64,000 nucleotides of DNA, from NCBI GenBank assembly GCA_902765725.1, contig CACXAT010000003.1, positions 1-64,000 of the forward strand, read 5' to 3'. Of the stretch, positions 4,917-28,146 are shown piece after piece. The position numbers and the translations under genes were made by a program. Position 1 is the stretch's first letter, and each line of letters opens with the position of its first letter. This DNA is from an uncultured Lachnospiraceae bacterium. Its GTDB lineage: Bacteria > Bacillota > Clostridia > Lachnospirales > Lachnospiraceae. A model generated the notes under the pieces. It had not been told where the DNA came from, did no database searches, and saw only the letters and a list, made by a program, of their open reading frames with translations.

Positions 4917-7529
4917 ATGGAACAATATACGGTAACGGGTATGAGCTGCGCAGCCTGCCAGGCCCGGGTGGAGAAAGCTGTATCGAAGGTGCCGGGGGTG
5001 ACCTCCTGCGCCGTCAGCCTGCTCACGAATTCAATGGGCGTGGAAGGTACGGCAGACGAAGCACAGATCATAAAAGCGGTCGAGGATGCAGGATACGGCG
5101 CCTCGAAGCGGGGAGAGGACGCACAGACTTCGGGAAAGGCCGCAGGCCTGACGGCTAGTGAGAAGCTGGCGCAGGAGGAAGAGGCTCTCCGGGACAGGGA
5201 GACGCCCGTCCTGAAGAGAAGGCTGATCGCGTCGGTCGCATTTTTGCTGGTCCTTATGTACTTTTCCATGGGCCATGGCATGTGGGGCTGGCCGGTCCCG
5301 GCTTTTTTTGAAGGCAATCCCCTCGGGATCGCGCTGCTGGAAGCGGTCCTGGCACTCATTGTCATGATCATCAACAAGAAGTTCTTTATCAATGGCTTCC
5401 GGGGGCTCCTGCACGGTGCCCCGAACATGGACACACTGGTCGCGATGGGCAGCGGAGTGTCCTATGTCTGGAGCATGGCCGTCCTGTTTGCCATGACAAG
5501 GGCTGCCTCCGATGGCAATATGGAGGCTGTCCACGAGTACATGCACGGACAGCTTTATTTTGAATCGGCAGCCATGATCCTGGCTCTGATCACCGTCGGA
5601 AAGATGCTGGAGGCGATGAGCAAGGGGCGGACGACGGACGCCCTGAAGAGCCTGATGAAGCTGGCTCCGAAGACTGCGGTGGTGGTGAAGGACGGCGTGG
5701 AGACGGAGGTTCCCGTAGACAGTGTCGCGGTCGGGGATATCTTCATCGTAAAGCCTGGAGAGAGCATTCCGGTAGACGGTATCGTGGAAGATGGGATCTC
5801 GGCGGTAAATGAATCCGCCCTGACTGGCGAGAGTATCCCGGTCGACAAGGAGCCGGGCATGAAGGTGAGCGCGGCTACGATCAATCAGTCTGGATTCCTG
5901 CGGTGCAGGGCGACCAGAGTGGGCACGGACACGACCCTCAGCCAGATCATCAAGATGGTGTCGGATGCGGCCGCAACGAAGGCCCCGATCGCCAAGATCG
6001 CTGACAAAGTCAGCGGGATCTTTGTCCCGGCGGTCATCGGGATTGCTGCCCTGACATTTCTCATCTGGATACTGACGGGAAGGGGCATGGCCTTCGCCCT
6101 GGCAAGAGCGATCTCGGTGCTGGTCATCAGCTGTCCCTGCGCCCTGGGACTGGCGACTCCGGTCGCGATCATGGTCGGCAACGGAAAAGGCGCGAAGAAC
6201 GGGATTCTGTTCAAGACAGCGGCTTCTCTGGAGAACGCGGGTAGAACCCAGATCATTGCGCTGGATAAGACGGGAACCATCACCAGCGGCGAGCCGAAGG
6301 TTACGGATCTGGTGCCGGCGGAGGGTGTGAGTGCCGAGAGGCTTCTGGCCCTGGCCGGAGCTCTGGAGCGAAAGAGCGAGCATCCCCTGGCGAAGGCGGT
6401 CATCGAGGAGACAGCTGCCAGGAAGATGGAGCTTCAGGAAGTGACCGGTTTCGAGGCAAAGCCCGGAAACGGACTCAGCGGGACCCTTGCGGAGGAGGGG
6501 ATCGTCCTTACAGGCGGGAGCCTGCGGTACATCAGCTCTATCACATCGATAACAAACGATATGATGGCGAAGGCTGAAGCTCTGGCCCAGGAAGGAAAGA
6601 CGCCTCTTTTATTTGCCGCAGATGGCCGGATGCTGGGGATCATAGCAGTCGCGGATACGATGAAGGAGGACAGCAGACAGGCGATCGAAGAGCTCAAGGG
6701 CATGGGGATCCATGTTGTCATGCTGACCGGTGACAATGAACGCACGGCAAAGGCTGTAGGCAGGCTGGCCGGAGTGGACGAGGTTGCCGCAGGCGTCCTG
6801 CCGGACGGGAAGGAAGCCGTCATACGGCAGCTCCAGAAGAAGGGGAAGGTCGCGATGGTGGGCGATGGGATCAATGACGCTCCGGCACTCACCAGGGCAG
6901 ACACCGGGATCGCGATCGGCGCCGGTACGGATGTGGCGATCGATTCTGCGGATGTGGTGCTCATGAACAGCAGGCTCAGTGACGTGCCGGCGGCAATCCG
7001 TCTGAGCAGGCAGACACTGAAGAACATACATGAGAACCTGTTCTGGGCATTCTTCTACAACTCGATCCTGATCCCCGTAGCGGCAGGCGCCTACTATACG
7101 GCATTCGGGCTGAAGCTCAATCCCATGATCGGGGCCGCGGCCATGAGCCTCTCCAGCTTCTGCGTCGTCACGAACGCACTGAGGCTGAACCTGTTTGATA
7201 TCAGAAGTACAAAGCATGACAGAAAGATCAGGCAGAAGGCAGATTTCTCAGCCGGAGCCTTATCAGATAAACAGCAGGAAACAAAAGATAGCAAAGAAGA
7301 TTCACAGGAGGTAACAGCAATGACAAAGACAATGAGTATCGAGGGTATGATGTGCGTACACTGTGAGGCACGGGTGAAGAAGGTCCTGGAGGCGATCGAC
7401 CAGGTAAGCAGCGCCGAGGTCTCCCATGAGAAGGGGACGGCGGTCGTTACCCTGAACTCAGACGTAGATAATGAAGTTCTGAAGAAGGCTGTAGAGGATC
7501 AGGACTACAAAGTGACAAACATCGCCTGA
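4917..7529 (+). CDS. copA: Copper-exporting P1B-type ATPase CopA with C-terminal CopZ-like domain
   Basis: Cu(I) efflux pump of 870 residues. Order: N-terminal HMA domain with GMSCAACQ (Cys10, Cys13); membrane helices; the transmembrane Cu site CPC at 406-408 followed by ALGLATP; phosphorylation site DKTGT at 450; the ATP-binding region; GDGINDAP at about 649; final helices. A charged linker then leads to a second HMA domain with GMMCVHCEA, separate from the first and after the last helix, an unusual position. The DNA just before that domain keeps a strong ribosome site and an ATG. The gene follows csoR and should be induced by copper. Confidence 0.95.
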   Translation: MEQYTVTGMSCAACQARVEKAVSKVPGVTSCAVSLLTNSMGVEGTADEAQIIKAVEDAGYGASKRGEDAQTSGKAAGLTASEKLAQEEEALRDRETPVLKRRLIASVAFLLVLMYFSMGHGMWGWPVPAFFEGNPLGIALLEAVLALIVMIINKKFFINGFRGLLHGAPNMDTLVAMGSGVSYVWSMAVLFAMTRAASDGNMEAVHEYMHGQLYFESAAMILALITVGKMLEAMSKGRTTDALKSLMKLAPKTAVVVKDGVETEVPVDSVAVGDIFIVKPGESIPVDGIVEDGISAVNESALTGESIPVDKEPGMKVSAATINQSGFLRCRATRVGTDTTLSQIIKMVSDAAATKAPIAKIADKVSGIFVPAVIGIAALTFLIWILTGRGMAFALARAISVLVISCPCALGLATPVAIMVGNGKGAKNGILFKTAASLENAGRTQIIALDKTGTITSGEPKVTDLVPAEGVSAERLLALAGALERKSEHPLAKAVIEETAARKMELQEVTGFEAKPGNGLSGTLAEEGIVLTGGSLRYISSITSITNDMMAKAEALAQEGKTPLLFAADGRMLGIIAVADTMKEDSRQAIEELKGMGIHVVMLTGDNERTAKAVGRLAGVDEVAAGVLPDGKEAVIRQLQKKGKVAMVGDGINDAPALTRADTGIAIGAGTDVAIDSADVVLMNSRLSDVPAAIRLSRQTLKNIHENLFWAFFYNSILIPVAAGAYYTAFGLKLNPMIGAAAMSLSSFCVVTNALRLNLFDIRSTKHDRKIRQKADFSAGALSDKQQETKDSKEDSQEVTAMTKTMSIEGMMCVHCEARVKKVLEAIDQVSSAEVSHEKGTAVVTLNSDVDNEVLKKAVEDQDYKVTNIA
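7304..7529 (+). other. Internal ribosome site and in-frame start for a 69-residue CopZ-like chaperone
   Basis: Within copA, AGGAGGT (7306-7312) precedes an ATG at 7320 by 7 bases, in the copA frame. Translation from 7320 would give a free 69-residue HMA protein of normal CopZ size, starting MTKTMSIEG with the CVHC metal site and ending at the copA stop. It looks like a copZ gene whose upstream stop codon was lost. Whether the short product is made is inference. Confidence 0.6.
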
Positions 7530-7554
7530 GGACTGTCTTGTTTGCACAAATTTG

Positions 7555-7584
7555 TTTACACAACTATGGCATCCGTGGTATAAT
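7555..7584 (+). promoter_or_regulatory. Promoter of the candidate non-coding RNA
   Basis: TTTACA (7555-7560), an 18-base spacer and a perfect TATAAT (7579-7584). Transcription should begin near 7591, 25 bases or more after the end of copA. Confidence 0.75.
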
Positions 7585-7590
7585 TCAGAT

Positions 7591-7825
7591 ATAGAAAAGC
7601 ATGCGCGTGAAGATGTACGTAAAGGGGATGAGAAGGTATGGGGCACTGCACTGTTTCGCATCGCGCGGAAAGCATACGACGGAACAGTGATCCCCCCCGG
7701 CGGTCGGGTACATCTTCGTATGAGCGCTGAAGTGAACCGCCCGGCCGGCTTCAGTATGAATATCTGAATAACGGATCGCAGGAGACGCCTGTGGCAGCTG
7801 GTTGGCTGCCAGGGCGTCTTTTTTA
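7591..7825 (+). ncRNA. Candidate structured non-coding RNA, family not recognised
   Basis: About 235 bases between a strong promoter and a terminator, with extensive complementarity. Outer stem: GAAGATGTAC (7609-7618) with GTACATCTTC (7708-7717), a perfect 10 bp. Middle: GGGG runs near 7624 and 7640 with CCCC at 7692-7698. Inner stem: CACTGTTTCG (7649-7658) with CGGAACAGTG (7680-7689). A further hairpin CTGAAG/CTTCAG follows near 7726-7753. A weak 71-codon frame crosses the region but has no ribosome site and no known domain. The long rod with internal bubbles recalls 6S RNA; I cannot see a diagnostic motif for 6S, SRP RNA, tmRNA, RNase P or a known riboswitch. Confidence 0.6.
7783..7825 (+). 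terminator. Terminator of the candidate RNA
   Basis: A two-part stem, AGACGCC (7783-7789) with GGCGTCT (7813-7819) enclosing GGCAGC (7793-7798) with GCTGCC (7805-7810), runs into six T. Confidence 0.9.
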
Positions 7826-7981
7826 TGCAACGCAGTGGATCTTTGTGAAAATCTGCCAATTCTCTTATGCATATGATGGGCTGCGCCTGCAGCATTGATG
7901 TTTGCAAAAGGCTGTGCTATCCTCATCTTACATTTCTGAATTATTCATTTCTAAAAGCATTTCTGAAAGTGAGGTCAGTCT

Positions 7982-18227: not shown

Positions 18228-18779
18228 ATGGAAGAAAGGCAGATAATCGATCTGTACTGGGCAAGATCCCAGGAAGCGGTCGAACAGACCAGGATCCGGT
18301 ACGGCCGGCTGATCTATTCGATCGCCATGAAGATCCTCAGGATCCGGGAGGATGCCGACGAGTGCGAGAATGATACCTATATGAGAGCGTGGAACAGCAT
18401 GCCGCCTCAGCGGCCGGCACTCCTGAGCGCATTCCTGGGGAAGATCGCCAGGAACCTTGCCCTGGACCGCTACGAGCGGGAACATGCGCAGAAAAGAGGC
18501 GGCTGCGAGATCCCTCTGATCCTGGATGAGCTGGAGGAATGCGTCCCGTCCGGCAGCGGCATGGAGCTGCCGCTGGAGATGCGGGATATCCTGAACCGTT
18601 TTCTGGAAGGACAGACAGAGACTGCAAGAAAGATCTTTCTGAGACGGTACTGGTTTGGTGACAGCGTGAAGGAGATCGCCGGGCTGTATGGCCTGGGCGA
18701 GAGCCGGGTGAAGATGTCGCTTCTGAGAAGCCGGGATACCCTCAGGAAATATCTGGAGGCGGAAGGAGTCAGCATATGA
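18228..18779 (+). CDS. ECF-type RNA polymerase sigma factor
   Basis: The 183-residue protein has sigma region 2 at about residues 20-90 (DADECENDTYMRAWNSMPP) and region 4 at about 125-178 with a helix-turn-helix (VKEIAGLYGLGESRVKMSLL). GGGAGG lies 6 bases before the ATG at 18228. It overlaps the next gene by 4 bases (ATGA), the usual arrangement of a sigma factor with its membrane-bound regulator. The inducing signal cannot be read from the sequence. Confidence 0.88.
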   Translation: MEERQIIDLYWARSQEAVEQTRIRYGRLIYSIAMKILRIREDADECENDTYMRAWNSMPPQRPALLSAFLGKIARNLALDRYEREHAQKRGGCEIPLILDELEECVPSGSGMELPLEMRDILNRFLEGQTETARKIFLRRYWFGDSVKEIAGLYGLGESRVKMSLLRSRDTLRKYLEAEGVSI

Positions 18780-19693
18780 GTGAGAACAACGAAAAAAGAA
18801 AACAGGCACAGAGCCTGCTCCATTCAATGACGGATATAGATGACCGTTTCTTGGAGGAAGCCATGGAGCAGCCGTCCGCGGGTGAAGCATCGAAGCCGGA
18901 GGGCAGGAAGATGCGAAGGTACAGCACATGGGCTCTGACAGCAGCCGCGTGCCTGACGGTGGTAATCATCGGCCGGTATGTGACGCTGAACAGGGACTCG
19001 GCTCTGAAAAATGAACAGCCCTCTGCCGTGATGGAGCAGATGATGGATACGGAGCTTCCTGTGGCCGGCAGCGCGCAGAGTGTACCGGCTGAGGCTTCAG
19101 ACAAGGCAGAGAGTGTACCGGCTGAGGCTTCAGATAACGCAGTGAGCATACCGTCAGAGGATGCAGGTATGGCGGCAAGTATGCCGGATGAGGCTTCAGA
19201 AAGGGCTGAGGTCTCAGAGGAGGCCGCAGCGCAGGAAGAGATGCTGGATGCAGCTTCGGTGCAGGCCATCAACCCATTTATCGATACGAAGACGCTGGAA
19301 GAGGCGCAGGAGATCGCGGGGTTTGAACTGAATGTGCCCAGGGCGGAGGATCCTTATACGGTCCTGAATTACAGGGCGGTCGAGGGCTCGATGCTCGAGA
19401 TCATCTACTGGGATGAGAAGGGCACGGAAGGCTATCGGATCCGCAAGGCTGCCGGAAGTGAGGATATCAGCGGAGACTACAATGAATATGCACTGGAGAA
19501 GACGGTCACCCTGGCAGACGGGACGAAGGTCACTCTTCGGGGAGATGAGGAGGACCAGTGGTCTTTGGCGGTATGGACGATGACAGAGGCATCCGTGGAG
19601 AAGGAGGACTATTCCTTTGCGATCTGCTGCAGGGAGAAGACCCTGACTGCGGAGCAGATCACTGAGATGGCGGAAGTGATGTCGCAGGAGTGA
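18776..19693 (+). CDS. Putative anti-sigma factor, single-pass membrane protein
   Basis: The 305-residue partner of the preceding sigma factor. Residues 1-45 are cytoplasmic and charged, followed by one membrane helix (about 46-62). An Ala/Glu/Ser/Pro-rich extracytoplasmic linker contains repeats of VPAEASDKAES. A folded C-terminal domain of about 130 residues follows, which I do not recognise beyond its frequent presence in clostridial anti-sigma proteins. The function rests mainly on translational coupling to the sigma gene. A short tandem of TGATGTCGCAG units spans and follows the stop codon (19677-19715). Confidence 0.7.
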   Translation: MSENNEKRKQAQSLLHSMTDIDDRFLEEAMEQPSAGEASKPEGRKMRRYSTWALTAAACLTVVIIGRYVTLNRDSALKNEQPSAVMEQMMDTELPVAGSAQSVPAEASDKAESVPAEASDNAVSIPSEDAGMAASMPDEASERAEVSEEAAAQEEMLDAASVQAINPFIDTKTLEEAQEIAGFELNVPRAEDPYTVLNYRAVEGSMLEIIYWDEKGTEGYRIRKAAGSEDISGDYNEYALEKTVTLADGTKVTLRGDEEDQWSLAVWTMTEASVEKEDYSFAICCREKTLTAEQITEMAEVMSQE

Positions 19694-19878: not shown

Positions 19879-21633
19879 TTATTCTACGGCTTTGATCGTC
19901 TCCAGAACCGCATCGCGGATGGCCGCGTTGACTTCCAGGGCCTTCTGGCGGGTGTCCTGTCTGGAGTAGAAGTAGAACTTGATCTTCGGCTCTGTTCCGG
20001 AGGGACGGATGGCGAACCATGTGCCGTTGTCCAGGAAGAAGCGAAGGACGTTGGAGGCCGGGATATCTTCATAGCCGTCCTTGTAGTCGATTACCTTCAC
20101 GACCTTGTAGCCTGCGACGCTGTCCCAGCTTCCGTCCGGATTCTCCTGGACGGCTGTCGCCGGAACAGTGGCTGCCTTGGGCAGATTGCGGCGGACGCTC
20201 TCCATCATGCGGCTGATGCGCTGGGCGCCTTCGATTCCCTTGAGGACCAGATTCGGCTCATCTTCCGCATAGGCGGCATATTTCTCCGAGAGATTCTCCA
20301 GTACCTGGAACAGGGTCTTGCCCTGCTTCTTGTAATATGCGGCGGCTTCCGCGACCAGCATGCCGGCGCTGATGCCGTCCTTGTCACGGATCTCCGGGCA
20401 GGCGGCGTAGCCGACAGACTCCTCATATCCGAACAGATAGGTATATCCATTTTCAAGAAGATACGGGATGCGGCCGCAGATATTCTTGAATCCGGTGAGG
20501 GCTTCAAACATCTTCACACCGTAGGACTCCGCGATCTCGGTGGTCAGGGTGGAGGTTACGATGGACTTGACCATCGCGCCTTTCTCCGGAAGGGTGCCGG
20601 CGTCCTTGTGACCTTCGAGAATATAATTCACCAGCAGATAGCCGGTCTGGTTGCCGTTCAGCGGGACATAGCTGCCGTCATCGGCAAGAAGCTCTATGGC
20701 GAAGCGGTCGGAATCGGGATCCGTTGCCATCAGCAGCTCTGCGCCGACCTTTCTGCCCAGCTCCTCGCTGAGTCTGAACGCCTTGGGATCCTCCGGGTTC
20801 GGATATCCGACGGTGGTAAAGTCGGGGTCCGGATCCTTCTGCTCTTCCACGATGTGGAAGTTGGTGAAGCCTCTTTCCTTCATCATCTTCGAGAAGGGGA
20901 TGGAGCCTGCGCCATTCAGCGGGGTGTATACGATCGGGATCGTCAGATCCAGCTCATCGCCCTCGTGGATCGCCAGCTTTTCGACCATATCCAGGTAGAG
21001 CCGGTCTTCCTTCTCGCCCAGAAGGGTGATCTTTCCCTCTGCCACCAGCGAATCGTATTCAGAGTAGTCCACGTCGCAGTCTGTGAAATAATCCAGCGAG
21101 TCGATCTTCTCGGTCATGCCGTCTGCCACATCCGCGCTGACCTGGCAGCCATCTTCCCAGTAGACCTTGTATCCGTTGTATTCCTTCGGATTGTGGGAAG
21201 CGGTGATGTTGATGCCGGACACGGTCCCGAAGACACGGATCAGGCAGGCAAGCTCAGGCGTCGGACGAAGGGACGGGAATGCATAGACGCGGATCCCGGC
21301 CCGGGCGAGGATGCAGGCTGCCAGACGAGAGAATTCCATGGAAAAATGACGGGGATCATGTGCGATGATCACACCCTTCTCCATGGCCTGCGGGCCGGCT
21401 TCGATGATATAATTCGCGATGCCCCTGGTCGCCCTGCCTACGGTATAGACATTCATGCAGTTGGTGCCGGCGCCGACAACACCGCGAAGACCGGCTGTGC
21501 CGAAGTGCATATCCTGGAAGAAATGCTCACGCATCTGATCCTCATGCTCCTGAAGCTCAAGCAGCTGTGCGTGAAGCGGATCCGATTCGGGCACATTCGC
21601 GAGCCACAGATTGAAACGATCTTTGTAATCCAT
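19879..21633 (-). CDS. Phosphoglucomutase/phosphomannomutase (alpha-D-phosphohexomutase)
   Basis: Interconverts glucose 1-phosphate and glucose 6-phosphate, feeding glycogen and envelope-sugar synthesis. The 584-residue length matches the PgcA/PGM2 type. Visible motifs: substrate loop FGTAGLRG near residue 50, the phosphoserine loop TASHNPKEYNGYK near 144, the metal loop DPDSDRFA near 300, and the phosphate-binding RPSGTEPKIKFY near the C-terminus. The start at 21633 has GGGAGGT 9 bases upstream. It is divergent from the unknown membrane protein gene. Confidence 0.93.
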   Translation of the reverse strand: MDYKDRFNLWLANVPESDPLHAQLLELQEHEDQMREHFFQDMHFGTAGLRGVVGAGTNCMNVYTVGRATRGIANYIIEAGPQAMEKGVIIAHDPRHFSMEFSRLAACILARAGIRVYAFPSLRPTPELACLIRVFGTVSGINITASHNPKEYNGYKVYWEDGCQVSADVADGMTEKIDSLDYFTDCDVDYSEYDSLVAEGKITLLGEKEDRLYLDMVEKLAIHEGDELDLTIPIVYTPLNGAGSIPFSKMMKERGFTNFHIVEEQKDPDPDFTTVGYPNPEDPKAFRLSEELGRKVGAELLMATDPDSDRFAIELLADDGSYVPLNGNQTGYLLVNYILEGHKDAGTLPEKGAMVKSIVTSTLTTEIAESYGVKMFEALTGFKNICGRIPYLLENGYTYLFGYEESVGYAACPEIRDKDGISAGMLVAEAAAYYKKQGKTLFQVLENLSEKYAAYAEDEPNLVLKGIEGAQRISRMMESVRRNLPKAATVPATAVQENPDGSWDSVAGYKVVKVIDYKDGYEDIPASNVLRFFLDNGTWFAIRPSGTEPKIKFYFYSRQDTRQKALEVNAAIRDAVLETIKAVE

Positions 21634-21808
21634 CAGAATAATACCTCCCTTTCCCATTTTATCCCGGCAGTCTCGCGGGACTGCCTGACTCTGGAGTTGG
21701 TTTGGCCGCAGGGGCCAACCTATAGGTTTATTCTACCATTAAATATGATAAAATGTTAAAATCAACGAAGTTATCAGAGAATTTTTCATGAAAACAGGGG
21801 ATCGCCAT

Positions 21809-22699
21809 ATGACTACTGACAATCGTGAAAGCCTGTCACAGCTGCTGGAACAGGACCGGGAACAGGTCCTTGCCAGTCTGCAGGCGGACAGACAGCCTGC
21901 GCAGGCAAGACAGGTCCTGGAGAAGGAGACTGAGCGCCTCATGTACCGCGCTGCCCGGATGGAAGACGACCGTTCCAGGGCTCAGGCGGTCCAGGGGATG
22001 CTGCAGGTTGTCAGGAACACGCTGCCTCTGCTGGAGTCGGTTACGGACACGGAGGTTTGGGAGAAAAATGTCCCGGCGCAGAAACGGTCAAAACTGCGTC
22101 TGACGCTTCCGGCGGCTGCGTCCCTGGCGGGCGGACTTCTGTGCGCGGCTGCGGGGCTGTTTGGACAGGCTGCGGCAGGCAGGGTCCTGAGCATCGGAGC
22201 CCTGCTGTGGACGGCTGCCGGATGCGCGCTGCTGACGCTGGGCGGATATCTGGCCGGCCGGGGCGTCGGAGGAAAACAGAAGAAGCCGGAAGTGACCTAT
22301 ACCTATCTTGTGGATCCGGCCCAGGTCTGGCATGTCCTGCAGGGGATCGTGCTGACGGCTGACCACACCCTGGAAGAGGCTCAGGAGTACGCGAAGCTGG
22401 AGGAGACAGCCGGCGGGAGAGACCTGGCAGTGCCGGACAAGGACGAGCTTTCATTTTTCTCGGAGCTTCTGGAGAATGCCTACGCCAGGAGGAGACAGTT
22501 CCCCTCGGATGCCGCGCTTGCGGAGCAGGTGGAGAGCATCCGGTATTACCTTCATTCCAGAGGGGTGGAGACAGAGGATTATTCCGAGCAGAGCGCGGAA
22601 TGGTTTGAGGTGCTTCCTTCCGGAAACAGCCATGTTACGATCAGGCCTGCGATGCTCCATGACGGAGTGCTGCTGCGCAAGGGACTTGCGGCCCTCTGA
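21809..22699 (+). CDS. Uncharacterised two-helix membrane protein upstream of an Hsp70-like gene
   Basis: The 296-residue protein begins with a long charged, probably coiled-coil region (about residues 1-90, many Gln/Arg/Glu heptads). Two hydrophobic helices follow at about 99-120 and 126-150. A cytoplasmic domain of ~140 residues completes it. I recognise no family. An ATG at 21788 in the same frame is the alternative start; 21809 has the better ribosome site (AGGGGA). It ends 38 bases before the Hsp70-like gene. Adjacency suggests a membrane partner or cofactor of that ATPase; this is inference. Confidence 0.65.
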   Translation: MTTDNRESLSQLLEQDREQVLASLQADRQPAQARQVLEKETERLMYRAARMEDDRSRAQAVQGMLQVVRNTLPLLESVTDTEVWEKNVPAQKRSKLRLTLPAAASLAGGLLCAAAGLFGQAAAGRVLSIGALLWTAAGCALLTLGGYLAGRGVGGKQKKPEVTYTYLVDPAQVWHVLQGIVLTADHTLEEAQEYAKLEETAGGRDLAVPDKDELSFFSELLENAYARRRQFPSDAALAEQVESIRYYLHSRGVETEDYSEQSAEWFEVLPSGNSHVTIRPAMLHDGVLLRKGLAAL

Positions 22700-22737
22700 C
22701 ATGCAGCAGGCGCAGATCTTGGATACAGAGGACAGAT

Positions 22738-24651
22738 ATGGAACGTTACTATGGATTTGACCTGGGAGACGCGGAGAGCGCGGTCGCCCGGCTGAATAGT
22801 GAAAATGCCCTGAAGGACCCGGACGTGCTTGCGGTTGGCGGCGCGCAGAGCTTTGTCACGGCCTTTGCCAGGCGGCAGAGCGGGGAGCTTCTGATCGGGG
22901 AAGGCGCCTGCTATGCTCCGGATGCGATTGAGAGAAAGCTGCGCTTCAAGAGCAGGTTCCTGACAGATCCTCAGAGCGCCAGAGACATACGGACCTTCGC
23001 GGCAGGGGTGCTGTCCAGGCTGATTGGTGACGGCAATCTGGCGCAGGGAGAGGATTCCTGCTTCTACGTGGGGTGCCCTGCGGGATGGTCGAAGGCGGAC
23101 CGCGAGCGGTATCGCAGGATCTTTGAGGACGCAGGCTATCCGCCGGCCCGGATCATCTCCGAGTCCAGGGCTGCGCTGATCTCCGCATGCAGGTCCAGAC
23201 ATCTGCAGATCGCCTATGATATTCTGTCGAAGCCGGTCCTGGTAGTGGATATAGGATCTTCGACTACGGATTTCGCATTTATCGAATCAGGCAGGGAAGT
23301 GGAGCTGCAGACCGCCGGCGAGGTGATGCTGGGAGGCGGCATCATGGACCGGATGCTGCTGGAGGAGAGCGTGGAGGCAAGTCCCGACCGCTCCGCGATC
23401 CGGGAGATCTTTGACAGGAGCGAGGCCTGGAGGAATTACTGTGAATTCGCGGCCAGGCGCCTGAAGGAGAAGTATTTCGGGGACGAGGCATACTGGGCGA
23501 GCCGGCCCTGCACCCGCAGCATCGAGATCCTCGGTCAGACGCCCCTGCAGCTGACGATCCGCATGAACCGGGACATCGCGAACAGGATACTGAACGCTCC
23601 GGCGCCGGGACTGAAGGGAGCTTCATTTAAAGAGGCCTTCTGCGAGAGCCTGGCACAGATACGCGCTAAGATCCGCGAACAGTCTCCGGAGCTGATCTTC
23701 CTGACCGGAGGCGTGTCGAAGCTTCCCGCGATCGGGCAGTGGTGCCAGGAGGCATTTCCGGACAGCGTTGTGGTGACGACGCCGCAGCCGGAATTCTCGG
23801 TCGCCCGCGGACTTGCCTGCTGCGGCAGGATCGACGAGGACATGAGGGCCTTCCGGAAGGAAGTGGAGGACCTGATAGAGACGAGCACCGTGGAGAGCAT
23901 CGTTGCGAGCCACATGGAGGATCTGTACCGGCGCATCGTGGACGCCCTGGTGGATCCGATCATGGAGAATGCCGTCATGGCTGTGTTCGAGCGCTGGCGC
24001 GCGTCTGAGATCAGCCGCCTGTCACAGATCGACGAAGAGCTGGCGAAGGAGATCGAGCGGTATCTTCGGTCGGAAGAGGCTCAGGCCATTCTGGTGGGGA
24101 CCGTATCCTCCTGGCTTGGCCCTGTGGCGTATGAGTTGGAGGAGCATACGATGCCGATCTGTGTGCGGCACAATGTTCCCTACAGGGCTCTGAACCTGAA
24201 CAGCTATCTGTCGCTGTCCGATATCGACATCAGGATCGACACCAAAGACATGTTTGCCCTGGACCAGATCACCTGGATGATCAATGCGATCATCTCCGTG
24301 CTGGTCGGACTTCTGTGCGGAGGCAGCGGGGTGGCCCTGATCGCGGGCGGCCTGGAGGGGATCATCGTCGGGGCGATCCTGTCCCTCAGCGTGCTGCTGA
24401 TCGGCCAGGGACACATAGAGAACCGGATGATGGATATCGATCTGCCCAAGCCCCTTCGCAGGCTTGTCACCAGATCCTCCTTTGAGAACCGCATGAAGAA
24501 GATCGCTCCGGAAGTGAAGGCAAATTTCTTTGAGAGCCTGGAGAAGGAGAAGAACCTGGAGATCACAGGCCGGCTGACGGGGGAGATCTCCCAGCAGATC
24601 GAGCAGTGCCTGATCCGGATGGCCGAAGTGGTGGAGATACCCCTCGGCTGA
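22738..24651 (+). CDS. Hsp70-like ATPase with C-terminal membrane segment
   Basis: The 637-residue protein has an actin/Hsp70-type ATPase fold. Evidence: the phosphate-1 loop YYGFDLGDAESAVA at the N-terminus, phosphate-2 motif VLVVDIGSSTTDFAFI near 170, the GGGIMDRML motif, and the adenosine motif IFLTGGVSKLP near 330. The canonical Hsp70 substrate domain is absent. Instead there is a helical region (about 375-510) and a hydrophobic stretch (about 513-560, Gly/Ile/Leu-rich, probably two helices), then a charged C-terminus. AGAGGAC precedes the ATG. The next gene starts 15 bases later and encodes a secreted protease. Confidence 0.75.
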   Translation: MERYYGFDLGDAESAVARLNSENALKDPDVLAVGGAQSFVTAFARRQSGELLIGEGACYAPDAIERKLRFKSRFLTDPQSARDIRTFAAGVLSRLIGDGNLAQGEDSCFYVGCPAGWSKADRERYRRIFEDAGYPPARIISESRAALISACRSRHLQIAYDILSKPVLVVDIGSSTTDFAFIESGREVELQTAGEVMLGGGIMDRMLLEESVEASPDRSAIREIFDRSEAWRNYCEFAARRLKEKYFGDEAYWASRPCTRSIEILGQTPLQLTIRMNRDIANRILNAPAPGLKGASFKEAFCESLAQIRAKIREQSPELIFLTGGVSKLPAIGQWCQEAFPDSVVVTTPQPEFSVARGLACCGRIDEDMRAFRKEVEDLIETSTVESIVASHMEDLYRRIVDALVDPIMENAVMAVFERWRASEISRLSQIDEELAKEIERYLRSEEAQAILVGTVSSWLGPVAYELEEHTMPICVRHNVPYRALNLNSYLSLSDIDIRIDTKDMFALDQITWMINAIISVLVGLLCGGSGVALIAGGLEGIIVGAILSLSVLLIGQGHIENRMMDIDLPKPLRRLVTRSSFENRMKKIAPEVKANFFESLEKEKNLEITGRLTGEISQQIEQCLIRMAEVVEIPLG

Positions 24652-24666
24652 TCCCATAGGAGTAGT

Positions 24667-26019
24667 ATGACAGGATTTTATAAGAAAACCGCGGCACTCT
24701 TCCTGCTGGCGGCATGGGTTGGCGCCCTGGCGATGTCCTGCGCCGGCGAAGAGGCCCTCTTCGAGTACGCGCCTCTGGTGCGCCTTCCGAAGTATTACAA
24801 TCTGGAAGAGCAGGGGAAGAGGCCTGTCGTCAGGAGCCAGGGGAAGCTTGCTTCCTGCTGGGCAATCTCTGCGTGCTCTGCCATCGAGTCCGCGCTGCTG
24901 CCGGAGCAGGAATATCTGTTCTCGCCCGACCATATGGCCCTTCAGAACGGATTTAATACCGTGCAGGAGGATGGCGGGGATTACTACATGATCATGTCCT
25001 ACCTGGCAGGCTGGAAGGGGCCGGTGCCGGAGGCGGATGATCCTTACGGAGACGGTCAGTCGCCGGAGGGACTGACGGCCGCGGTGCATGTCGGGGACAT
25101 CCGGTTCATGCGGGGGATGTCGCAGCAGCGGATCAAGCAGATGATTCTGACCTATGGGGCGGCACAGTCTTCTCTGGCCATGGACCGGTCGAAGATCGAC
25201 AGGGAGCAGTACCATTATTACAACAGCAGGACCTCCTCTTACTATGACCCCTTTGAGGAGGAGCTTGACCATGATATCCTGGTCCTGGGATGGGACGACA
25301 GCTATCCGGCGGAGAACTTCCGCATCCGGCCGAGAAGAGACGGGGCATGGATCTGCCAGAATACCTGGGGGGAGGATTTTGGCGAGGACGGAATCTTCTA
25401 CGTCTCCTACGAGGACAGGAACCTGTTTCGAAAGGGCGGCCTCGTCTACAGTGACATCCGCGAAGCTTCCGCCTCGGAGAGAGTCTATGAGCAGGATTCT
25501 CTCGGATGGCAGGGGAGACAGGGATACGGCACAGGCCAGTGCTGGTTTGCCGGTGTATTCGAGGCAGAGCAGACCGAGTCATTAACAGGCATCGGGTTCT
25601 ATACCACAAGCCCGTATACAGCCTATAAGACCCTGCTGGTCCCGGAGTTTACCGGAGCAGAAGACCTGGCCGGGGCGGCAGGATGGACGGATCAGGGTCA
25701 TTTTTCCAGGATCCTTGCGGCAGGCCAGATCGCCAATCCCGGCTTTCACACGGTCAGCGTACCGGGTGAGGTGATCGTGCGCGGGGGACAGAGATACGCG
25801 GTGGTGATCTGGGTCAGCACCCCCGGAGAGAAGAAGCCGGCCGCCGTTGAGATGGCAAAGGACAGATACACACAGACGGTAACGACTGCGGGAAGGCAGA
25901 CCTATCTCAGCAGGACCGGAGAAAAATGGGAAAACACGCAGGAGGCGTACCAGACCAATGTCTGCATGAAGGTATACACCCGGCAGATCCAGTCTATGGG
26001 AGAAGCTCCTATCGGATAA
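24667..26019 (+). CDS. Secreted papain-family (C1) cysteine protease with lectin-like C-terminus
   Basis: The 450-residue protein has an N-terminal signal peptide (about 1-25; the SCAG segment could also serve as a lipobox). The C1 catalytic residues are in order: oxyanion Gln and nucleophile Cys64 (QGKLASCWAIS), His202 (ELDHDILVLGWD) and Asn232 (CQNTWGEDFGEDGIF). The last ~170 residues look like the beta-rich lectin-like domain found after clostridial C1 peptidases. No separate propeptide is evident. AGGAG lies 4 bases before the start. Its coupling to the Hsp70-like gene is unusual. Confidence 0.85.
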   Translation: MTGFYKKTAALFLLAAWVGALAMSCAGEEALFEYAPLVRLPKYYNLEEQGKRPVVRSQGKLASCWAISACSAIESALLPEQEYLFSPDHMALQNGFNTVQEDGGDYYMIMSYLAGWKGPVPEADDPYGDGQSPEGLTAAVHVGDIRFMRGMSQQRIKQMILTYGAAQSSLAMDRSKIDREQYHYYNSRTSSYYDPFEEELDHDILVLGWDDSYPAENFRIRPRRDGAWICQNTWGEDFGEDGIFYVSYEDRNLFRKGGLVYSDIREASASERVYEQDSLGWQGRQGYGTGQCWFAGVFEAEQTESLTGIGFYTTSPYTAYKTLLVPEFTGAEDLAGAAGWTDQGHFSRILAAGQIANPGFHTVSVPGEVIVRGGQRYAVVIWVSTPGEKKPAAVEMAKDRYTQTVTTAGRQTYLSRTGEKWENTQEAYQTNVCMKVYTRQIQSMGEAPIG

Positions 26020-26038
26020 CAGAAAGGAAACACGCAGA

Positions 26039-26698
26039 ATGAAAAAGATCATAGTGGCAACCGGGAACGCGCATAAACTCAATGAGATCCGGGAGATCTG
26101 GGGAGATCCGCAGACGCAGATCCTCAGCATGAAGGATGCCGGCATCGATGTGGAGATCATCGAAGACGGAGAGACATTTGAGGAAAATGCGGTGATCAAG
26201 GCCCGCACAGTGGCGGCTGCGGGCGGCTGCATGGCGCTGGCGGACGACTCGGGACTTGTGGTGGACGCGATGGATCAGGAGCCCGGGATCCATTCGGCCC
26301 GCTTTATGGGAAGAGACACATCCTATGAGATCAAAAACCGGGCGATCATAGACAGGGTAAATGAATACTGCACGCTGAAGGAGAATGGGGAGAGCGCCTG
26401 TGCCGGACGGCCCGGGAGTCTTCCGGACGGAACACCGGGAGAGCTTCGCTCCGCCAGGTTTGTCTGCGCGGTGGCTGCCGCCTGGCCGGACGGAACCGTC
26501 AGGACGGTGACAGGGGTCATGGAAGGCCGGATCGGTTATGAGATCGCCGGAGAGAACGGGTTTGGCTACGATCCGATCTTCTTCCTTCCGGAATACGGGA
26601 AGACCTCTGCCGAGATCTCGCCGGAGGAGAAGAATGCCATCAGCCACAGGGGAAAGGCATTCCGGATGATGCGTGAAGTCCTGGAAAGCCATGCGTGA
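26039..26698 (+). CDS. rdgB: XTP/dITP diphosphatase (non-canonical purine NTPase)
   Basis: House-cleaning enzyme that hydrolyses ITP, dITP and XTP. The 219-residue protein has the Ham1 motifs: ATGNAHKLNEI at the N-terminus, FEENAVIKAR, ADDSGLVVDA, and GFGYDPIFFLPEYGKTSAE before SHRGKAF. An insertion of about 20 residues (AGRPGSLPDGTPGEL) precedes the third strand. It follows the protease gene after 19 bases and precedes yfcE, its usual clostridial neighbour. Confidence 0.95.
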   Translation: MKKIIVATGNAHKLNEIREIWGDPQTQILSMKDAGIDVEIIEDGETFEENAVIKARTVAAAGGCMALADDSGLVVDAMDQEPGIHSARFMGRDTSYEIKNRAIIDRVNEYCTLKENGESACAGRPGSLPDGTPGELRSARFVCAVAAAWPDGTVRTVTGVMEGRIGYEIAGENGFGYDPIFFLPEYGKTSAEISPEEKNAISHRGKAFRMMREVLESHA

Positions 26699-26803
26699 TG
26701 TTGCATTTCCACAGATATCGGTGTACACTCCAGTTGACTGAGGAAAAAGGGCTGAAGCTGTATACAGGAAGAGCATACAGAGATATTTTTAGAAGGAATA
26801 TGT

Positions 26804-27295
26804 ATGAAGGTATTAGTGGTCAGTGATACGCATGGGGTCGATGTCAATGTGGCAGTGGCGCTGGACCGGGAATGGCCTGTTGACGCGATCCTTCATCTGG
26901 GAGATTCCCAGGAAGATGAGGAAGAGTTTGCTGAGATCGTTGCGGGGGAGGATGTCCCGATCTACATGGTGAAGGGAAACTGCGACTATTTTGTGGACTA
27001 TCCGCCCTCACGCATCATCACGCTTGCCGGGCACAGGATCCTCATGGCCCACGGGCACGGCTACTATGTAAACTTCGGGACCAAGGACCTGGAGGCGGAC
27101 GCGCTGGCCAATGATTGTGACATAACGATCTACGGCCATACCCACAGGCCCCAGATCGATGAGAGCAACCCGGAGCTTCTGATCCTCAATCCGGGAAGTC
27201 TGTCCTATCCCAGGCAGGAAGGCCGCAGAAAGAGCTATATGGTCATGGAACTGGCGGAGGGCGAGAAGCCTGAGGTGGAACTGAAATTCATCTGA
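26804..27295 (+). CDS. YfcE/MJ0936-family metallophosphodiesterase
   Basis: Small calcineurin-like phosphoesterase of 163 residues. The metal ligands are visible in order: SDTHG, HLGDS, KGNCDY, AHGHGYYVN and YGHTHRP. Family members hydrolyse phosphodiesters in vitro; the physiological substrate is unknown. AGAAGGA precedes the start. It sits directly after rdgB, a common pairing. Confidence 0.9.
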   Translation: MKVLVVSDTHGVDVNVAVALDREWPVDAILHLGDSQEDEEEFAEIVAGEDVPIYMVKGNCDYFVDYPPSRIITLAGHRILMAHGHGYYVNFGTKDLEADALANDCDITIYGHTHRPQIDESNPELLILNPGSLSYPRQEGRRKSYMVMELAEGEKPEVELKFI

Positions 27296-27353
27296 CAGGG
27301 CCATCCTGAAAAGCGGGTCAGAAAAAGTTGGTTAAATTTCTCAGAATTGGGGA

Positions 27354-27382
27354 TTGACAAAGCCACGCTCACGTAATATAAT
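27354..27382 (+). promoter_or_regulatory. Strong promoter of the tRNA cluster
   Basis: Consensus TTGACA (27354-27359), a 17-base spacer and TATAAT (27377-27382), 30 bases before the first tRNA. Confidence 0.9.
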
Positions 27383-27411
27383 CCCGATTGTGTCTTGGGA
27401 AAACAAGATTC

Positions 27412-27486
27412 CGGGGTGTGGCTCAGTTTGGCTAGAGCACCTGCTTTGGGAGCAGGGGGTCGCAAGTTCGAATCTTGTCACCCCGA
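27412..27486 (+). tRNA. tRNA-Pro(TGG)
   Basis: Acceptor CGGGGTG pairs with CACCCCG; anticodon TGG in loop CTTTGGGAG; T arm contains TTCGAAT. CCA is not encoded. First gene of the cluster. Confidence 0.95.
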
Positions 27487-27507
27487 TTACAATTGCATAT
27501 TCATTAT

Positions 27508-27578
27508 GCGGGTGTAGTTCAATGGTAGAACACCAGCCTTCCAAGCTGGATACGTGGGTTCGATTCCCATCACCCGCT
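27508..27578 (+). tRNA. tRNA-Gly(TCC)
   Basis: Acceptor GCGGGTG pairs with CACCCGC; anticodon TCC in loop CTTCCAA; T arm contains TTCGATT. CCA is not encoded. Confidence 0.95.
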
Positions 27579-27589
27579 TTTTGTGACAT

Positions 27590-27663
<74 letters not shown>

Positions 27664-27672
27664 TCCATTATG

Positions 27673-27746
27673 GTGGGTATAGCGCAGTTGGTTAGCGCGC
27701 CAGATTGTGGCTCTGGAGGCCCAGGGTTCGAATCCCTGTACCCACC
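27673..27746 (+). tRNA. tRNA-His(GTG)
   Basis: Acceptor GTGGGTA pairs with TACCCAC, and the base before it (27672) is G, giving the His-specific G-1 opposite discriminator C. Anticodon GTG in loop TTGTGGC. CCA is not encoded. Confidence 0.95.
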
Positions 27747-27754
27747 CTTTCCCT

Positions 27755-27826
27755 TGGGCTATCGCCAAGCGGTAAGGCACAGGACTTTGACTCCTGCACA
27801 CACCGGTTCGAATCCGGTTAGCCCAG
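27755..27826 (+). tRNA. tRNA-Gln(TTG)
   Basis: Acceptor TGGGCTA pairs with TAGCCCA; anticodon TTG in loop CTTTGAC; T arm ACCGG/CCGGT encloses TTCGAAT. CCA is not encoded. Confidence 0.95.
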
Positions 27827-27862
27827 CTTGGCCGTTAGGCCCGAATTTTATATTATGGATGG

Positions 27863-27935
27863 GGGACATTAGCTCAGGCGGTAGAGCACCTGACTTTTAA
27901 TCAGGTTGTCCGGGGTTCGAGTCCCCGATGTCTCA
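27863..27935 (+). tRNA. tRNA-Lys(TTT)
   Basis: Acceptor GGGACAT pairs with ATGTCTC with one G-T pair; anticodon TTT in loop CTTTTAA; T arm CGGGG/CCCCG. CCA is not encoded. Last gene before the terminator. Confidence 0.95.
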
Positions 27936-27946
27936 CGTGAAGATGT

Positions 27947-27975
27947 CTGCAGCATGAGTGCTGCAGGCTTTTTTT
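27947..27975 (+). terminator. Terminator of the six-tRNA operon
   Basis: CTGCAGCA (27947-27954) pairs with TGCTGCAG (27959-27966), followed by a run of T. Confidence 0.9.
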
Positions 27976-28021
27976 ATCTGTGAAGGCCGGCAGTTTTCCG
28001 GCCGCGATACTTCTGTGGAAG

Positions 28022-28050
28022 TTGCGAAGAAGCGCAACTTGTGCTACATT
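28022..28050 (+). promoter_or_regulatory. Candidate promoter of tRNA-Leu
   Basis: TTGCGA (28022-28027), a 17-base spacer and TACATT (28045-28050), 12 bases before the tRNA. An inverted repeat AAGTTGCG/CGCAACTT overlaps the -35 region. The boxes are weaker than those of the main cluster. Confidence 0.45.
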
Positions 28051-28061
28051 GCTTCATGTCG

Positions 28062-28141
<80 letters not shown>

Positions 28142-28146
28142 CTGCG

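Follow-up and report, generated by a model that had tools for sequence, protein, structure and literature searches.

An Hsp70 ATPase core that lacks the substrate-binding domain (SBD) and resides at a membrane compartment is found in HSPA13 (Stch), which resembles in this respect the ATPase discussed below but is a eukaryotic protein of the endoplasmic reticulum and is not part of a dedicated two-gene unit. As to the bacteria, GrpE is named in a review as the only type of Hsp70 exchange factor known there (PMC4753570), and the available accounts of its action have GrpE open the nucleotide-binding domain (NBD) of DnaK, with the beta domain wedging in and lobe IIB turning (PMC4753570, PMC11685456). 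In a subset of the GAP1-N2 GTPase conflict systems, an Hsp70 domain without the peptide-binding domain occurs together with GrpE, according to Kaur et al. (2020, PMC7159879). This Hsp70-GrpE theme is the nearest published setting encountered for the pair of genes considered here, the likeness being an Hsp70 domain devoid of its peptide-binding part and encoded near an exchange factor, in our case a putative one; the differences are that no GTPase-like third gene recurs with our pair and that both its products carry membrane hairpins.

The pair, hereafter genes A and B, lies in a stretch of 64,000 nucleotides (the window) from an uncultured Lachnospiraceae bacterium whose genome amounts to 2.5 Mb in 47 contigs and has its closest public relatives in uncultured Lachnospiraceae and Clostridiales. 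An earlier note, made from the sequence of the window, had linked A, B and the following protease gene C in an undescribed envelope or export system. As to A and B, we found no description of the pair in the open literature searched, so that "undescribed" is apt; the protease is a different matter, as discussed in the last section.

The A-B pair and its distribution

Genes A, B and C are neighboring open reading frames (ORFs) on the plus strand, spaced, as had been noted, by less than 40 bases (38 between A and B, 15 between B and C; Table 1), and they are real genes rather than chance ORFs because they are conserved in tens of genomes. For gene A, an alternative start at an upstream ATG (21788) is possible.

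Table 1. Coordinates of the genes and protein regions discussed (positions in the window)
Feature	Position	Strand	Basis
Gene A	21809-22699	+	ORF, 296 aa
A residues 1-99, cytoplasmic helical N-terminal domain, four helices (predicted)	21809-22105	+	AlphaFold2
A residues 100-151, membrane hairpin, both ends predicted inside	22106-22261	+	AlphaFold2, hydropathy
A residues 161-296, long helix, two helices, six short strands (predicted)	22289-22696	+	AlphaFold2, structure comparison
Gene B	22738-24651	+	ORF, 637 aa
B residues 1-372, Hsp70 nucleotide-binding domain	22738-23853	+	Fold and catalytic residues
B residues 373-507, helical region in place of linker and SBD (predicted)	23854-24258	+	AlphaFold2, partly low confidence
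B residues 508-555, glycine-rich membrane hairpin, CGGSG turn (predicted)	24259-24402	+	Hydropathy
B residues 571-637, C-terminal helices (predicted)	24448-24648	+	AlphaFold2 and alignment
Gene C (protease)	24667-26019	+	ORF, 450 aa
RdgB/Ham1 pyrophosphatase (presumed name), outside the A-B unit	26039-26698	+	Pfam; starts 19 bases after C
YfcE-type phosphoesterase (presumed name), outside the A-B unit	26804-27295	+	Pfam; comes after RdgB

A and B are a true two-gene unit. Within the genus of the window's bacterium, 16 of 19 genomes have the two genes and the same three (G004, G006 and G017) lack the one as well as the other, and A adjoins B in each of the 16 carriers. Among the best 80 of 368 public relatives, A immediately precedes B in 77 loci, which makes 77 of the 78 testable ones, two loci (L123, L136) being untestable for A because they start inside B; the only clear orphan among the 78 is L124, where B (6001-7905) has no A despite 6 kb of upstream sequence. 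The gap between A and B in the 77 loci has a median of 24 bases and is 50 bases or less in 60 of them, with the two genes overlapping in 11. Thus, the proposed tight link of an SBD-less, membrane-attached Hsp70-like ATPase to a two-helix protein is borne out well beyond the window. Upstream of B in L124 there is an ORF for an unrelated membrane protein on the other strand.

No plausible third gene cluster recurs beside A and B in the 80 public loci, and the other large clusters merely overlap A or B on the opposite strand or in other frames. The neighboring ORFs, of which 115 were scanned out of 266 picked, have the look of ordinary metabolism, as judged from the 25 most frequent of the 77 Pfam families in that scan.

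The distribution of the family is patchy. In a sample of 200 genomes from the bacterial family, the four genomes with strong matches to B, one of them being that of the window, are also the four that match A, and three more matches to B are weak (E from 2.8e-6 to 2.6e-4). Strong B matches were obtained in 8 of 295 genomes sampled from the order, again including the window's own, and in one of 398 sampled from the phylum, namely the window's own, with none in the other 397. The members include Lachnospiraceae bacterium NK3A20 and Sarcina sp. DSM 11001; the viral contigs and phages that were searched contained no relatives. A distant member is found on a conjugative plasmid of Calothrix, beside integrase genes, where a homologue of B (27.4% identity over 97%, E 8e-74) is directly preceded by a gene for a 268-aa protein with the layout of A and two transmembrane segments. 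In hhalign, this protein aligns with A end to end with a P value of 0.0027 and a probability of only 11%, and it ends before the RPALV..G..KKG hairpin; judging from this alignment, it is likely to be related to A.

In two genomes B is damaged: it is split across two frames in G087:C20 (L049, L053), and only a 40-residue C-terminal stretch of it is left in G175:C6 (L051), which suggests decay of the A-B module. The records of 58 of the best 80 public B loci bear the names RUG, RGIG, RUI, Rumen or Reindeer, which we take to denote ruminant gut sources; judged by these names, ruminant gut bacteria seem overrepresented among the carriers of the family.

The ATPase and the two-helix protein

By its ATPase domain, B is an Hsp70. 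The Pfam HSP70 profile matches residues 111-367 with 28.7 bits, the cut-off being 20.6, and it also matches all 74 B homologues; in a fold comparison, all 50 matches listed for B are of the Hsp70 type, with Z scores of ~29-32. The residues D8, K71, E142, D171, S174-T177 and G324/G325 are invariant in the 74 homologues, and D178 is kept in 73 of them, so that B shares with Hsp70/DnaK (PF00012) the complete NBD fold and the catalytic residues. It is on the interdomain linker and the SBD that B fails the definition of an Hsp70: in an alignment to the genome's own DnaK, neither a DnaK-like linker nor an SBD is seen in B. In place of the GDILLLDVTPLSL and the SBD of that DnaK, B shows the helical region of residues 373-507 followed by the membrane hairpin, which comprises two hydrophobic segments (517-535 and 537-555). 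All three traits that the earlier note had attributed to B, namely Hsp70 nucleotide motifs, no substrate domain and a hydrophobic segment of its own, are therefore present, the last one in duplicate. The AlphaFold2 model of B has a mean pLDDT of 78, with the membrane part below 50 over most of its length; the very end of the protein, ...VVEIPLG, is near-invariant within the Clostridia set.

A further difference from DnaK concerns the phosphate loop, which reads GDAES in B as against GTTNS in DnaK, a change of GTT to GDA. Specifically, residues 11-13 (window 22768-22776) are DAE in 74 of 74 homologues, TTN in Hsp70 and HGE in the Calothrix homologue, D11 being thus invariant in the 74 and replaced by histidine in Calothrix. 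The replacement of threonine by aspartate at this place may, as far as can be read from the alignment, alter the ATPase activity of B.

The partner protein, A, fits its previous description as a two-helix protein outside the known families: it has two hydrophobic segments (residues 100-118 and 126-144) and gave no match in Pfam (none at E <= 1), NCBIfam, PADLOC or PHROGs. In a class-level profile search with A, the matches obtained besides the window were weak and lay nearly all in the membrane stretch, and a profile search of the PDB returned, with 5.7e-4, a designed channel that matched the hydrophobic stretch; the matches at E <= 10 included no GrpE. The AlphaFold2 model of A has a mean pLDDT of 90. 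The hairpin has lysines and arginines on either side, and this positive-inside pattern, seen in 73 of 74 homologues, predicts that both soluble parts of A are cytosolic, that is, on the same side of the membrane as the NBD of B. The end of A, with its beta wing, is among the best-conserved parts of the protein, F266, P270, T277, P280, A281 and G292 being invariant.

Comparison with GrpE and a possible mechanism

The C-terminal domain of A, as predicted, may share with GrpE (PF01025) the order of a long helix, two helices and a beta wing, and its gene stands beside that of an Hsp70 NBD; A differs from GrpE in that it has no sequence match to it and carries a membrane hairpin and an extra N-terminal domain. 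In the VIA structure comparison, the match of A to GrpE (1dkg_A) has a Z score of 8.0 over 131 aligned residues with an rmsd of 14.3 Å, and a Z near 8 is within chance reach of helical models. Other GrpE entries match residues ~161-296 with Z scores of 7.6 (4ani), 7.1 (9a81), 6.7 (9bls) and 6.5 (9blt), and among the 50 matches listed, the five GrpE entries are the only ones that reach residue 296; the unrelated 8f6h spans residues 94-271 with an rmsd of 32.7 Å. Since GrpE had been suspected beforehand from the motif FE.LP...TLRPALV of A, the fold match was expected rather than blind. A Foldseek search with the model of A gave no match at E <= 0.001.

Comparison of the sequences did not separate A from chance. 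The hhalign score of A against 15 divergent GrpEs, 15.9, was equalled by 7 of 150 column shuffles, the P value moving from 0.03 with 4 sequences to 0.07 with 15; against all GrpEs, 13 of 150 shuffles were as good, and against 20 canonical GrpEs, 42 of 150. Hidden Markov models of the GrpE C-terminus (the last 30-70 columns) score A no higher than shuffles. With the hhalign and HMM scores all inside the shuffled ranges, the identification of A as a GrpE by sequence was rejected. The C-terminal domain of A may, judging from the model, resemble GrpE in order and shape, so that A, failing the sequence test, would at best work like GrpE. The window's genome also carries an ordinary GrpE and an ordinary DnaK.

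The reading that we favor, and that in our judgment could equally turn out right or wrong, is that A and B make up a self-contained, membrane-bound machine of the Hsp70 ATPase type, with A as the dedicated exchange partner of B. In this machine, B would be the engine, its ATP/ADP state moving, in place of a peptide-binding domain, the helical stalk and the glycine-rich hairpin in the membrane. A would be the dedicated membrane partner of B, and its C-terminal part in the cytosol, composed of a long helix, a helical bundle and a beta wing, would probably bind the NBD of B and promote nucleotide exchange. If A acts on B as GrpE acts on DnaK, the result would be an Hsp70 cycle in which the nucleotide state drives the hairpin of B. 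The starting points of this scheme are the co-occurrence and adjacency of the genes, the intact Hsp70 active site, the absence of an SBD and the hairpins predicted with their termini inside; what it envisages on top of these is physical binding between A and B, a role of A as the exchange factor and a membrane change as the output. As the neighbors are ordinary metabolic genes, an accessory role in the membrane or envelope is our default guess.

A bolder proposal, which we regard as possible while inclining to doubt it, is that of an undescribed class of machines: an Hsp70 engine whose output would be a membrane hairpin rather than a grip on peptides, driven with the help of a GrpE-like exchange factor of its own that is anchored in the membrane. 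Such a machine would be distinct from the DnaK and GrpE of the cell and of sporadic occurrence, ranging from gut Clostridia to the plasmid of a cyanobacterium. If so, there would be a second, membrane-anchored type of exchange factor, paired with an SBD-less Hsp70, and the bacterial Hsp70 ATPase cycle could be wired to a membrane actuator. Since A belongs to no Pfam or NCBIfam family, the A-B pair defines an unnamed family in gut Clostridia.

Alternative readings and the neighboring genes

B could also be viewed as a membrane ATPase in the style of actin, FtsA or PilM, that is, a scaffold or polymerizing ATPase, with A as a mere anchor or adaptor. We consider this rather unlikely: although the MreB/Mbl profile matches 70 of the 74 B homologues, a profile of phage partition proteins matches B with 3.8e-8, actin-like ATPases lack an SBD just as B does, and A has no sequence relation to GrpE, the HSP70 profile outscores that of MreB on B (28.7 vs 24.6 bits) and the fold matches listed for B are, as noted, Hsp70-type without exception. 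On the B of the window, the actin-like profiles stay below their cut-offs (24.6 vs 27 bits for MreB_Mbl, 14.8 vs 31.8 for FtsA).

Another reading, unlikely in our view, is that of a conflict (defense-like) module, in which the Hsp70 ATPase would set the threshold for a hairpin that disrupts membranes. Such a module would be similar to the GTPase systems of Kaur et al. (2020), where an Hsp70 "sans its peptide-binding domain" is reported together with GrpE (PMC7159879). In its favor, the spread of B is patchy, with strong matches in 3 of the 199 other genomes of the family sample and in 0 of the 397 others of the phylum sample, a homologue sits on a conjugative plasmid beside integrase genes, and B is split in G087 and reduced to 40 C-terminal residues in G175; however, PADLOC has no match for A or B, the 115 scanned neighbors look metabolic with few PADLOC matches, and there is no variable third gene. 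In full, PADLOC yielded nothing on A, B and C and, at 1e-10, few matches on the 115 neighbors, the commonest being GlgB (5) and REase_II (4); Pfam finds amylases (5) and HhH-GPD glycosylases (4) among the same neighbors in the same numbers, and the two sets of PADLOC matches probably are these amylases and DNA glycosylases. A defense island around A-B was rejected on these grounds.

Some other loci combine Hsp70-like genes with GrpE. In L205 (1481-5049) and L206 (231-4171), a short divergent GrpE adjoins an Hsp70-like gene and a gene for a protein ending in CPCGSGKKYKxCC, a cysteine-rich end that we presume to be SEC-C-like. In other families of the order (L203, L204, L207, L208, L209 and L210), several Hsp70-like genes in tandem stand beside a divergent GrpE, which in several cases is within a protein of 560-650 aa; these tandem loci may be the Hsp70-GrpE neighborhoods of Kaur et al. 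(2020).

Returning to the A-B pair, gene order sets it apart from gene C. C is, as described before, a C1 protease, the Pfam scores being 57.1 bits for Peptidase_C1 and 126.7 bits for Lectin_like, and its N-terminus is hydrophobic (residues 9-27). Its closest solved relative is Cwp84 of C. difficile (4d59/4ci7), which is described as an S-layer protease and which likewise combines a C1 protease with a lectin-like domain (PMC4089489). In the genus, the protease adjoins B in 10 of the 14 testable genomes, among them that of the window (G013 and G016 are untestable, their contigs stopping after B), sits elsewhere in G011, G001 and G003 and was not found in G018; in other members of the genus, the gap after B is wider and measures hundreds of bases. 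The two genes downstream of C match Ham1p_like and Metallophos_2 in Pfam and are presumed to be RdgB and YfcE. The order protease-RdgB-YfcE occurs without adjoining A-B in G001, G003, G004, G006 and G011, and in G004 and G006 it is present though A and B are absent. Among the best 80 of the 368 public loci, the protease follows B in six, all from the window's genus; outside the genus, it is next to B in none of the 67 loci whose downstream sequence extends to 1500 bases or more. Gene order inside and outside the genus thus indicates that the protease belongs with RdgB-YfcE and that it has A-B for a neighbor only in a single branch. The reading of the earlier note, in which three genes form a system of the envelope or of export and the secreted protease is what this system delivers, is accordingly rejected as extremely improbable, the short gaps on one strand and the adjacency within the genus notwithstanding: the genes are not neighbors in relatives outside the genus, the protease set occurs apart from A-B, the gap to B is not kept even within the genus, and nothing was found in support of export.

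On its other side, the pair is preceded by a divergent gene (19879-21657, minus strand), presumably phosphoglucomutase/phosphomannomutase-like. A scan of positions 21500-27400 for promoters and terminators found no promoter-like site directly before A, and the counts of sites were at the level of shuffled sequence. Further upstream, at 18228-19693, a gene for an ECF sigma factor overlaps that of a 305-aa protein of unknown family in an anti-sigma-like position, and this couple is kept near A-B in some members of the genus. Downstream of the YfcE gene, the window holds an array of seven tRNA genes (Pro, Gly, Arg, His, Gln, Lys and Leu; 27412-28142), ahead of which, at 27354-27382, there is a perfect TTGACA-17-TATAAT promoter-like site.
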